Shown here in pieces: positions 17,129-20,154 of a DNA stretch of 62,149 bases (position 1 is its first letter; each line of letters begins with the position of its first letter). The stretch spans positions 1 to 62,149 of the forward strand of contig CALIFY010000061.1 in assembly GCA_938021675.1 (NCBI GenBank). Reading direction: 5' to 3'. The DNA comes from an uncultured Acidimicrobiales bacterium. GTDB lineage: Bacteria > Actinomycetota > Acidimicrobiia > Acidimicrobiales > SZUA-35. Under the pieces are notes generated by a model, which worked only from the letters and a program-made list of their open reading frames with translations, did no database searches and was not told where the DNA came from. The position numbers and the translations under genes were made by a program.

Positions 17129-18877
17129 ATGTCAGCAGCGTCGTTCGCTGAACTTGGAGTGCCCGACGAGCTGGTTGAGGTCCTTTCGAAGCAGCGGATC
17201 AACGAGCCATTCGCCATCCAGAAATTGACGATCCCCGATTCCCTTGCCGGTCGTGACATCCTGGCTCGAGCTCCGACCGGGTCGGGCAAGACGTTGGCAT
17301 TCGGTATCCCGTTGCTGGCTCGTCTCGGCCGCGGCACGTCCGGTAGGCCGAGAGGATTGATCCTGTCGCCGACCCGAGAGTTGGCGGAGCAGATAAGCCG
17401 GGAGCTTAGCAATCTGGCGTCGGCGGTCGACCGGTCCGTATTGGCGATCTACGGGGGAACCGGAATCAGAGCGCAGATCAAGGCGGCCAAGCGTGGCCCA
17501 GACCTACTCGTGGCCTGCCCCGGCCGGCTCCTGGACCTTATGAATCAGGGCGTGATCTCTTTGGAAGACGTCGACCTGGTGGTGGTTGACGAGGCCGACC
17601 GTATGGCCGACATGGGATTCCTGCCCGACGTTCGCCGCCTCCTGGACCAAACCGGCGGTGGCGGCCAGCGCCAGGTCGCTTTGTTTTCCGCCACGCTCGA
17701 CGACGACGTTCAGGAGCTGATTAAGCGCTACCTGGTCGACCCCGTTCAGCACGAGATCGGTGAGCCAGAACCGGATCTGCGTGGCATGGAACACCGGTTC
17801 ATAAAGACGCAGAAACAGCATAGGGTGTGGCTTGCTGCCGATCTGATCGCCGCCGCTCCCGGTCCGGTTATGGTTTTTGCCAGGACCCGACATGGCGTCG
17901 ATCGACTTGCCCGGCAGCTTCGCCAGGAAGGTATCACCACCGGTCATCTCCACGGGGGGCGTAGCCAGTCTCAGCGCGATCGCGCCTTGAAGGTTTTTTC
18001 CGGGGGCACTGTCGATGCGTTGGTTGCAACCGACGTTGCGGCAAGAGGAATCCATGTCGATGGCGTCGCCTGCGTCATCCATTTCGACCCTCCGGCCGAC
18101 AGTAAGGATTATGTCCACCGTTCTGGCCGGACCGCTCGAGCTGGAGCGGGAGGCGTTGTTGTCTCACTCCTTGAAGCGGGGCAAATCAAAGCCACATCGG
18201 CTATGAAACGCCGGCTCGGTATCGATGCCGAGATTGAGCCGACTCCGGAACGCCAACCGCGATCGTCGCGACCCGATGCCATCATCACCAGTGCCGATAC
18301 CCGTCGGGGCTCACAACGGTCGAATCGTTCTGCGAAGTCGGGTAAGCCGGGTGGGTCGGGAGACTCGTCCGGTCGGTCTCGTAACGGAACGAAGCGGTCC
18401 GGCGGGAAGAAGTCGGCCGATTCCAGGTCGAGTTCGGCAAAGCGAAACGGCGAGGACCGGTCGACCGGCCGACCGTCGCGAAACGGTGGCAAGAGCGCGT
18501 CCGGTACGACGTCGAGCACGGCTAAGAGCTCTGGCGAGTCGCGATCATCCGAGGCGACGCCCCGTCGCAGCGATTCGGGCTCCTCCAGTCGTTCTGGGTC
18601 GCCGGCATCTCGCTCTGGTGAAACGTCTGGTCAGGGAACACGGCGGTCGACCAAAAAGGCTGCCGGCAAACGGGCTGGCGCCAACAAGGGTGCCGGTAAG
18701 CGAAAAAATGCCTCTGGAAAACGGGTCGGTGCCAGCTCGACCGGCCGGAACGGGGCATCGGGCAGCCAGGCTGGTGCTGGGTCGTCGACCGGTGGCAAGA
18801 GCACTTCGTCCCGGTCGGGAAAGCCGAGACCGAAGAACCGCAAGAACAAACCCGGTGGCGCTCGTCGCCGGCCATGA
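17129..18877 (+). CDS. DEAD-box RNA helicase with long Ser/Gly/Lys/Arg-rich tail
   Basis: ATP-dependent RNA helicase of the RhlE/DeaD type, 582 residues. Motifs in order: Q-motif Gln31, AxTGSGKT at 48-55, PTREL, DEAD at 154-157, SAT, VFARTRHGVDRL, and HRSGRTAR. The catalytic core ends at about 365. The final 215 residues are low complexity, rich in Ser, Gly, Arg and Lys, and would be disordered and strongly basic, suitable for RNA contact. AGGAAGG lies upstream of ATG 17129. The 3' end is near the selenoprotein gene. Confidence 0.94.
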   Translation: MSAASFAELGVPDELVEVLSKQRINEPFAIQKLTIPDSLAGRDILARAPTGSGKTLAFGIPLLARLGRGTSGRPRGLILSPTRELAEQISRELSNLASAVDRSVLAIYGGTGIRAQIKAAKRGPDLLVACPGRLLDLMNQGVISLEDVDLVVVDEADRMADMGFLPDVRRLLDQTGGGGQRQVALFSATLDDDVQELIKRYLVDPVQHEIGEPEPDLRGMEHRFIKTQKQHRVWLAADLIAAAPGPVMVFARTRHGVDRLARQLRQEGITTGHLHGGRSQSQRDRALKVFSGGTVDALVATDVAARGIHVDGVACVIHFDPPADSKDYVHRSGRTARAGAGGVVVSLLEAGQIKATSAMKRRLGIDAEIEPTPERQPRSSRPDAIITSADTRRGSQRSNRSAKSGKPGGSGDSSGRSRNGTKRSGGKKSADSRSSSAKRNGEDRSTGRPSRNGGKSASGTTSSTAKSSGESRSSEATPRRSDSGSSSRSGSPASRSGETSGQGTRRSTKKAAGKRAGANKGAGKRKNASGKRVGASSTGRNGASGSQAGAGSSTGGKSTSSRSGKPRPKNRKNKPGGARRRP

Positions 18878-18912: not shown

Positions 18913-19524
18913 ATGGTGCACAATGTGCCTATGTTCGATCGAAGTGGTCGCAAACCTCGGTTGTCGCGACTCGCTCCCTTGGCGTTCGGCGGCCTTGCTC
19001 TTATCGCCAGCAGCTGTTCCTCCTCAGAACCGACCGCTGCACCTGAGGTAGCCGACGGCGAGACAGGTGCGAGTCAGACTGTTTCAGAAGAACCTGTTGG
19101 TCAGCGGTTGGACCCCTCGGTACTGAGTGGTGAGTTCACGACCATCTCCGGCGAAACGATCGAACTCGGGTCGTTGGCCGACAAGGATCTCGTGGTGTGG
19201 TTCTGGGCGCCGTGGTGAACGTCGTGCCGTGCAGAAGGCCCTGCGGTCGCAGAGGTCCACGAGCAGTTTGGTGACCAGGTCGAGTTCATTGGTATCGGTG
19301 GCGAGGCGCCCGGAGCAGACTTTGCGGCGTTTGTCGACGCCACAGGCACGGGATCCTTCCCCCACCTCGACGATTCCGAAGGGCAACTCTGGGAGCGGTT
19401 TGGAACCGGAGGCCGGTCGACGTTCATGTTCGTGAACGACGATGGGAGCTTCGCCCTCACCACCTACGGGGTAGCCGACGAGGAAGTGTTGGTCTCGGAG
19501 GTCGAGCGCCTCATCGCCACCTGA
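18913..19524 (+). CDS. Thioredoxin-like selenoprotein lipoprotein (UxxC; in-frame TGA)
   Basis: A TlpA/ResA-like thiol-disulfide oxidoreductase, predicted to be a membrane-anchored lipoprotein. The signal region RKPRLSRLAPLAFGGLALIASSC gives a lipobox with Cys35. The thioredoxin strand LVVWFWAPW runs straight into TGA at 19216-19218, followed in the same frame by TSCRAEGPAVAEV and about 90 more residues of thioredoxin fold (FGDQVEFIGIGGEA, FVNDDGSF, a final helix) to TGA at 19522-19524. The TGA therefore sits exactly where the first Cys of WCxxC belongs, giving W-U-T-S-C with Sec102 and Cys105. A SECIS-like hairpin lies at the right distance. The usual cis-proline position reads RST rather than a Pro. 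ATG 18931 is an alternative start; AGGTGG lies 12 bases before 18913. The alternative is a nonsense-mutated Cys protein, but the intact downstream frame and the hairpin argue against this. Confidence 0.85.
19216..19262 (+). promoter_or_regulatory. Bacterial SECIS-like element after the Sec codon
   Basis: The TGA is at 19216-19218. The upper stem pairs GGCCCTGC (19237-19244) with GCAG-A-GGTC (19249-19257), eight pairs with one bulged A and one G-U pair. It is capped by the tetraloop GGTC at 19245-19248. The loop starts 26 bases after the TGA and opens with GG, consistent with the published general rule for bacterial SECIS (apical loop about 16-37 bases downstream with a G in its first two bases) and resembling the GGUC of Escherichia coli fdhF. 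A lower stem TCGTG (19222-19226) with CACGA (19258-19262) may close the structure. It should recruit SelB-tRNA-Sec. Confidence 0.75.
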
Positions 19525-19563: not shown

Positions 19564-20154
19564 TTAGATCACGAATGGCCGCTTCATGCGGTGGAAGAGG
19601 TCGGCCAAGAACCGTAACGTCAGCCCCCAAATGACTTGTTCGGGGCGATTGAGCTGGATGGCAGGGAAGGTCGTTCCGGTCGGCGGGAACCGGTAGTCGA
19701 TATAGCGGGTGCGATCCCCGAGTTGGTCGAGATCGACCCAAACAATCTCAGCTACCTCGTCGTTTGGGCGGAGTTCCGGGTGTTCGTTGTCTAGCCAGAA
19801 GCCGTGTGCTGAGACGTCCATCGGGCGGTTCGTGGCCCGTCCGCCGTCGAGCTTGGTCAACGTGCCGAGGTAGCTTTCGTCGTCGAGTGGTAGCCCGACT
19901 TCTTCCCAGGTCTCACGGACCGCGGTGCGCTGCTCATCGCCGTCAGCCGGCTCCCATTTGCCGCCGGGAAACGCCATTTGCCCTGACCACGGGTCGTGTT
20001 CGCTGGTGGCCCGCTGAATGAACAACAGCTCGGTTGCCGGCCGATCGGTGGCGGCTCGAAAGATGGCGGCGACCGCTGCTGGTGACGACGAAACGTGGAG
20101 TTGGCTTGGCTGGTCCACCTGGTCGAACAGCGTTTTTAGCTGGTGACCGTTCAT
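19564..20154 (-). CDS. Nudix hydrolase, CoA-pyrophosphatase (NudL) type
   Basis: 196 residues. The Nudix box GGKWEPADGDEQRTAVRETWEEVGL contains the GX5EX7REXXEEXG metal-binding pattern in full, preceded by the LFIQRATSEHDPWSGQMAFPGG strand typical of NudL-like proteins that cleave coenzyme A into phosphopantetheine and 3',5'-ADP. Expected cytoplasmic; no signal peptide. The gene begins 21 bases after the upstream membrane-protein gene on the same strand, so they may be cotranscribed. Convergent with the selenoprotein gene, whose stop is 39 bases away. CoA specificity is by similarity only. Confidence 0.88.
   Translation of the reverse strand: MNGHQLKTLFDQVDQPSQLHVSSSPAAVAAIFRAATDRPATELLFIQRATSEHDPWSGQMAFPGGKWEPADGDEQRTAVRETWEEVGLPLDDESYLGTLTKLDGGRATNRPMDVSAHGFWLDNEHPELRPNDEVAEIVWVDLDQLGDRTRYIDYRFPPTGTTFPAIQLNRPEQVIWGLTLRFLADLFHRMKRPFVI

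Follow-up and report, generated by a model that had tools for sequence, protein, structure and literature searches.

A predicted selenocysteine-containing thioredoxin-fold lipoprotein with a conserved GGTC hairpin in an uncultured Acidimicrobiales bacterium

The window analyzed here is a stretch of 62,149 nucleotides, contig CALIFY010000061.1 of the uncultured Acidimicrobiales assembly GCA_938021675.1. Its forward strand holds a reading frame (18913-19524) with one in-frame TGA (codon 102, 19216-19218) and a normal stop, also TGA, at 19522-19524. Under translation table 11, the frame stops at the first of these. When it is read through, the motif around the TGA is FWAPW-U-TSC, and a hairpin resembling a bacterial selenocysteine insertion sequence (SECIS) follows at 19237-19257. 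From sequence evidence, we consider it nearly certain that this is a selenoprotein gene in which TGA 19216 is read as selenocysteine (Sec, U). The original prediction, made from the letters alone, had put the TGA where a thioredoxin motif has its first Cys (W-U-T-S-C), and this was confirmed. It had also carried the frame through the TGA to a normal stop, which was correct, and the part after the TGA is 101 residues long. The in-frame ATG from which it began the frame is present at 18913, but translation probably begins at ATG 18931, as judged from the N-terminal lengths of orthologues before the lipobox. With this probable start, the gene spans 18931-19524 on the + strand.

The remaining features of the gene lie on the same strand. 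The Cys codon of a probable lipobox (LALIASS-C) was found at 19015-19017. The Sec codon (19216-19218) takes first place in the WUxxC motif, as seen in the sequence and in the comparison with homologues, and the second Cys codon of U-T-S-C (19225-19227) presumably supplies the resolving Cys known from the family. At 19414-19419, the alignment shows Arg-Ser in place of the Gln-Pro of most relatives, the Pro being the presumed cis-proline.

A protein search matched 61 of 61 genomes at E ≤ 0.001, the window genome included. We examined 77 loci (L021-L097), a non-random sample of the best matches and hand-picked weaker ones, seven of which came from a search of genome contigs. In the best alignments of these loci to the window protein, residue 102 was a stop 62 times and Cys 15 times, and nothing else; the homologues thus carry TGA or Cys at this site, as had been anticipated, and no random residues. 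This count presupposed no residue and served as a check on the motif scan, whose pattern allowed nothing but TGA or Cys at the first position. Residue 105 was Cys in 64 of the alignments and a stop in 13. The motif scan returned 74 rows, of which one off-family row in L022 was dropped, and the site was found in 73 loci (45 UxxC, 13 UxxU, and 15 CxxC), every stop being TGA. The four loci that the scan missed also have TGA at the site, giving the total of 62 (58 + 4). Among the matches listed, the in-frame stops were TGA, plus one TAG in one row, and there was no TAA. The best named homologues are from Acidimicrobiia metagenome-assembled genomes (MAGs), all with Cys. Two loci of relatives, L076 and L078, hold tandem pairs of TGA-bearing thioredoxin-like genes. 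Their second copies, which have a stop and then Cys, were excluded from the hairpin, tree, and cis-proline counts. L096 runs into a contig end; it was kept out of the tree and is blank at the cis-proline column.

The TGA is kept in all six members of the window's clade (clade support 84/96). Nonsynonymous divergence (dN) was lower than synonymous divergence (dS) both before and after the TGA in the orthologue pairs that yielded values. For L021 and L022, dN/dS was 0.225/1.016 over 30 codons upstream of the TGA and 0.242/0.845 over 100 codons downstream. The pair L021 and L025 gave 0.297/1.368 upstream and 0.351/1.735 downstream, and L022 and L025 gave 0.335/0.866 downstream, where the upstream dS was not estimable. 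Shorter stretches compared with L023 and L024 agree.

The GGTC loop of the hairpin (19245-19248) starts after 26 nt from the TGA, and the hairpin, which has one bulged A, folds at −10.3 kcal/mol. The published rules for bacterial SECIS elements are a loop of 3-9 nt, an upper stem of 4-16 bp, a G in the first two loop positions, a spacing of 16-37 nt, and a minimum free energy of −7.5 or below (PMC13188914); the window hairpin conforms to these rules with its GGTC loop, 26-nt spacing, and energy. A perfect 4-bp stem with a 4-nt loop at +27 after the TGA was present in 27/45 UxxC loci, 13/13 UxxU loci, and 0/15 CxxC loci, and at any other place in at most three loci per group. A constrained local energy of −7.5 kcal/mol or lower at that place was reached by 31/45, 11/13, and 1/15 loci of these groups, respectively, compared to 2.3-3.6% at the other in-frame offsets used as a control. 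Since folding of the single sequence was ordinary (z −0.23 to −0.60), it was rejected as proof of a SECIS, and the case for the hairpin is comparative and not energetic. The window gave no match to Rfam at gathering scores, which says only that no curated family fits.

The GGTC loop stands at the fixed distance in 51 of the 58 TGA loci, and these 51 made up the covariation set; invariance of the loop is therefore by construction, but pairing of the stem is not. Changes on both sides were seen in 35 cells, compared to 8.5 when shuffled and no more than 15 in slid controls, and 0/500 shuffles were as high. The covariation score was 0.325, compared to 0.121. Covariation is seen between the wobble positions of two different codons (T-A 30, C-G 14, A-T 1, G-C 1, unpaired 5), and this pair brings in rare codons, such as GTA, which makes up 3.7% of the Val codons elsewhere in these genes. 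The published rules and the covariation thus bear out the claim of a GGTC stem-loop 26 bases after the TGA. Of four loci outside the model, L092 (CTGC/GCAG), L073 (ATGC/GCAT), and L082 (CTTC/GAAG) follow the stem pattern and L094 does not. In the window genome, the covariance model R1 scored the window gene at 61.2 bits, the L092 gene at 50.5 bits despite its absence from the training set, and the next match at 20.2 bits. The L092 gene is another thioredoxin-like gene with an in-frame TGA (contig C43, about 71626-72066, minus strand) with the motif WGAH-U-GIC and the hairpin CTGC-GGTC-GCAG; the next match is L100 (contig C23, 37922-37960). Seven loci, L080, L081, L085, L090, L093, L095, and L097, form a paralogous FWAPH/FFAPH-U-xxC group. 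This group has a possible hairpin nearer the TGA, with the loop at about +16 or +17 and energies of −7.3 to −17.8 kcal/mol, which would be a SECIS layout of another kind.

The Sec machinery on which the original prediction depended was found in full in the window genome, each component above its cut-off. tRNA-Sec (selC) scored 67.3 bits against a gathering score of 47 and was given the anticodon TCA by ARAGORN; a second match above the gathering score (49.1 bits) was called tRNA-Ser. selA (402.9 bits) adjoins selB (266 bits, cut-off 242.25) on the same contig as tRNA-Sec, and selD scored 373.2 bits. On gene content, the organism is able to make Sec. The selD gene (L018, 1501-2418, minus strand) has one in-frame TGA, in a GUGCK motif, and is itself probably a selenoprotein gene. 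Since the window gene's own stop is TGA, UGA is not reassigned genome-wide.

Across the 61 genomes, selA was matched in 47, 44 of them above the cut-off. Among the matches listed, TGA copies were present in 38 of 51 genomes, and all 38 had a selA match (36 above the cut-off). The other 13 had TGA-free rows only; selA was missing in nine of these and matched in four, once as a short fragment. The association between a TGA copy and a selA match was strong (Fisher p 2.4e-7, 51 genomes, counted by hand). These genomes are related and not independent, the matches listed stop short of the weakest ones, and ten genomes without listed rows were excluded. The co-occurrence is therefore support and not a calibrated probability.

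The read-through protein exceeded the gathering scores of PF00578 (41.6 vs 26), PF00085 (30.7 vs 23.5), PF13905 (30.5 vs 27), and PF08534 (29.5 vs 26.6), which makes it a member of the AhpC-TSA/Redoxin/thioredoxin-like superfamily. Nine NCBIfam models matched at E ≤ 0.001, all below their cut-offs, including WAxxUGC_long (NF041054) and the best of them, ResA (NF002854, 44.6 bits vs a cut-off of 170). AlphaFold2, run with an alignment of eight sequences, predicted a thioredoxin fold with a mean predicted local distance difference test score (pLDDT) of 79.4; most 10-residue blocks from residue 71 on were above 90, and the N-terminal part was low. The best fold matches in the PDB were Mycobacterium tuberculosis MPT53/DsbE (1lu4, Z 23.9, root mean square deviation 1.0) and DsbF (3ios, Z 22.9, root mean square deviation 1.4), then ResA, with peroxiredoxin Q chains appearing from rank 20 (Z 16.8). 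A sequence comparison, too, placed DsbF and MPT53 closest among solved structures (E about 6e-17). The modeled fold of the window protein is thus DsbE/DsbF-like, although likeness of fold does not reveal function. Ahead of the domain, a lipobox-like Cys is seen by eye in the window protein and five orthologues (6/6), and the protein is probably a lipoprotein.

The presumed thioredoxin-type cis-proline before strand 3, its column named by alignment, is absent in the window clade. Pro was found there in 37/38 other UxxC rows with letters in the column and in 13/15 CxxC rows. The window clade has Arg-Ser at the Gln-Pro columns in 6/6 rows, with Ser169 in the Pro column and Arg168 before it, and the UxxU clade has Arg in the Pro column in 13/13 rows. 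Arg at the cis-proline position is described for peroxiredoxins in PMC2757866; this Arg occupies the exact column in all 13 UxxU relatives and is one residue off in the window protein. One CxxC homologue from an Acidimicrobiia MAG, L051 (2460-2900), is also without the proline (IRSSF). Since this homologue has RSS too, loss of the proline is not tied to Sec. The branching order of the window clade, the UxxU clade, and the rest was not settled by the tree and, thus, one loss cannot be told apart from two.

The UxxU relatives, with two TGAs (W-U-x-x-U), comprise 13 loci in 12 genomes (L027-L033, L035, L038, L058, L062, L063, and L067) and form one clade with support of 100/99. Their UGAs start 9 nt apart, and each locus has one GGTC hairpin, at a spacing of 26 nt from the first UGA and 17 nt from the second. 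These distances both fall within the 16-37 nt given in PMC13188914. No other perfect hairpin of 4 bp with a 4-nt loop lies in the scanned stretch, and this one may serve both UGA codons. Outside the family, 148 genomes of the class were searched and 24 matched at 1e-15; two TGAs were found in 0/28 among the matches listed.

The neighborhood of the window gene is not kept beside its orthologues. A DEAD-box helicase lies upstream (17129-18877, + strand) and a NUDIX hydrolase downstream (19564-20154, minus strand), both unrelated to the gene and outside the system. No conserved neighborhood or operon was found, as the helicase, NUDIX, aldolase, and SDR neighbors had no match at 1e-5 in the loci of about 3.5 kb around five orthologues.

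We hold the selenoprotein identity and anatomy described above with very high confidence, a judgment that does not cover the reaction. The product is probably a lipid-anchored, extracytoplasmic Sec-containing oxidoreductase with a thioredoxin fold, of the DsbE/DsbF-ResA kind. Following established bacterial biology, SelB with Sec-tRNA would bind the hairpin and deliver Sec at the UGA, and the protein would be exported by means of a signal peptide, with the lipobox Cys as its anchor. If the protein behaves as its family does, Sec102 would attack a disulfide or an oxidized substrate outside the membrane and Cys105 would resolve the intermediate as a selenenylsulfide. The chances are about even that the reaction is a reduction of oxidized substrates; a peroxidase-like reaction is somewhat unlikely and disulfide formation unlikely. 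The original prediction that this lineage uses Sec in an envelope thiol-redox lipoprotein was supported in its Sec reading by the machinery, codon, and hairpin, while its envelope thiol-redox part is still something that we infer.

Several observations weigh against this interpretation. The loci compared are the non-random sample described above, and some are near-copies. The hairpin stretch folded alone is ordinary in three windows (z −0.23, −0.51, and −0.60), and its minimum is another pairing. A perfect 4-bp GGTC stem is missing at this place in 18 of the 58 TGA loci, of which seven are the FWAPH/FFAPH paralogues, four keep the stem if G-U is allowed, and seven have no clear hairpin there. 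Also, no VKOR and no DsbD/CcdA partner was found in the window genome at E ≤ 0.001, with searches that gave matches in 3/14 and 10/14 control genomes, respectively; since the window genome is rated 95% complete, this absence is not proof. Thioredoxin-like genes are present in the window genome all the same.

One alternative is that the TGA arose as a nonsense mutation or truly ends translation, the gene being a pseudogene or encoding a truncated lipoprotein, as the end of the frame under table 11 would have it. This is extremely improbable, since the codon is a stop or Cys in 77/77 loci and TGA in 6/6 clade members, dN is lower than dS downstream of it (0.242 vs 0.845 over 100 codons for L021 and L022), and, among the matches listed, every in-frame stop is TGA except for one TAG, and TGA copies occur in the 51 relatives only where selA was matched. 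Another possible explanation is that UGA is read as some other amino acid through a reassigned code or suppression. The open frame, and nothing further, speaks for this, and we find it hardly credible given that the gene itself uses TGA as its stop, Cys fills this column in homologues, the genome encodes tRNA-Sec (anticodon TCA) together with the Sec genes, and the hairpin is site-specific and covarying. The reading as a selenoprotein gene is therefore about as firm as sequence allows, and the function is not firm.

As for function, a true selenoprotein could act as an extracytoplasmic selenoperoxidase instead of a disulfide oxidoreductase, which we rate as possible and on the unlikely side. 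The tentative idea, drawn by analogy with peroxiredoxins, is that the cis-proline was lost and the neighboring Arg raises the reactivity of the selenol to peroxides. Arg-Ser in 6/6 window-clade rows, Arg in the Pro column in 13/13 UxxU rows, Pro in 37/38 other UxxC rows with letters there, the peroxiredoxin Q chains from fold rank 20 (Z 16.8), and the failure to find a VKOR or DsbD/CcdA partner are all consistent with it. However, DsbE, DsbF, and ResA are closest by sequence and fold, the window Arg sits next to the Pro column, one residue ahead of it, and RSS is present in the CxxC homologue L051 as well, so that the change is not tied to Sec. Loss of the cis-proline might otherwise have produced a metal or Fe-S binding site, a reading that we find very unlikely. 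We also consider doubtful the wider proposal that a DsbE-type lipoprotein turned into an extracytoplasmic selenoperoxidase or diselenide oxidoreductase within one family, with Arg (UxxU clade) or Ser after Arg (window clade) replacing the cis-proline, Sec at both active-site Cys positions of the UxxU clade, and one GGTC hairpin directing both UxxU insertions. If true, the selenoperoxidase or diselenide reading would provide an extant form midway between thioredoxins and peroxiredoxins, and the UxxU genes would be a test case of one SECIS serving two codons.

Since a Sec codon looks like a stop, selenoprotein genes are easily misannotated, and related genomes have one to several thioredoxin-like genes with an active-site TGA among the matches listed. 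The GGTC SECIS at a fixed place in most of the TGA genes examined provides a search key for them. The two-UGA relatives provide a way to ask how a single hairpin recodes two nearby stops, and the cis-proline replacement may connect thioredoxin and peroxiredoxin chemistry. The window genome has a haem-copper oxidase and, therefore, the organism can probably respire oxygen. A probable oxygen respirer with a selenoprotein contrasts with the statement in PMC13188914 that aerobic bacteria rarely retain selenoproteins; a milder view appears in PMC5029168.

UxxC and UxxU selenoproteins of this superfamily are already known. A Prx-like thiol:disulfide oxidoreductase of PF00578 with UxxC/UxxU is a listed selenoprotein kind (PMC13188914; PMC9312934), the family was listed already in 2006 and Actinobacteria are among three phyla rich in selenoprotein families (PMC1794560), and UxxU was reported in another Prx-like family (PMC2398784). 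What is new, on sequence grounds, is a clade of DsbE-like probable lipoproteins without the cis-proline and with a stereotyped SECIS. No naming of this family in Acidimicrobiia was met in the open-licence literature, which does not establish its absence from print. With the listed PF00578 selenoproteins, exemplified by WP_010940744.1, the window protein shares the Pfam family (41.6 vs 26 bits) and the motifs. Compared to the bacterial SECIS consensus of PMC13188914, the hairpin is alike in having a loop of 4 nt that starts with two Gs, a spacing of 26 nt, and an energy under −7.5 kcal/mol, but here the loop is a stereotyped GGTC at a fixed distance, and in the UxxU group one hairpin stands beside two UGAs.

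The ResA/TlpA/CcmG thiol-disulfide oxidoreductases share the fold, and the ResA model gives 44.6 bits; this is far below its cut-off of 170, and DsbD/CcdA was not found in the window genome at the threshold given above. The two-TGA relatives resemble SelL, the UxxU diselenide family reported by Shchedrina in 2007, in their UxxU motif, but the UxxU relative L028 scores 14.9 bits against the SelL-related model NF040769, whose cut-off is 120. The likeness to mycobacterial DsbE (MPT53, 1lu4) and DsbF (3ios) extends over sequence, predicted fold, and the motif FW(A/T)PWCxxC. In contrast to these proteins, which have Cys and Gln-Pro, the window protein is predicted to have Sec and has Arg-Ser.
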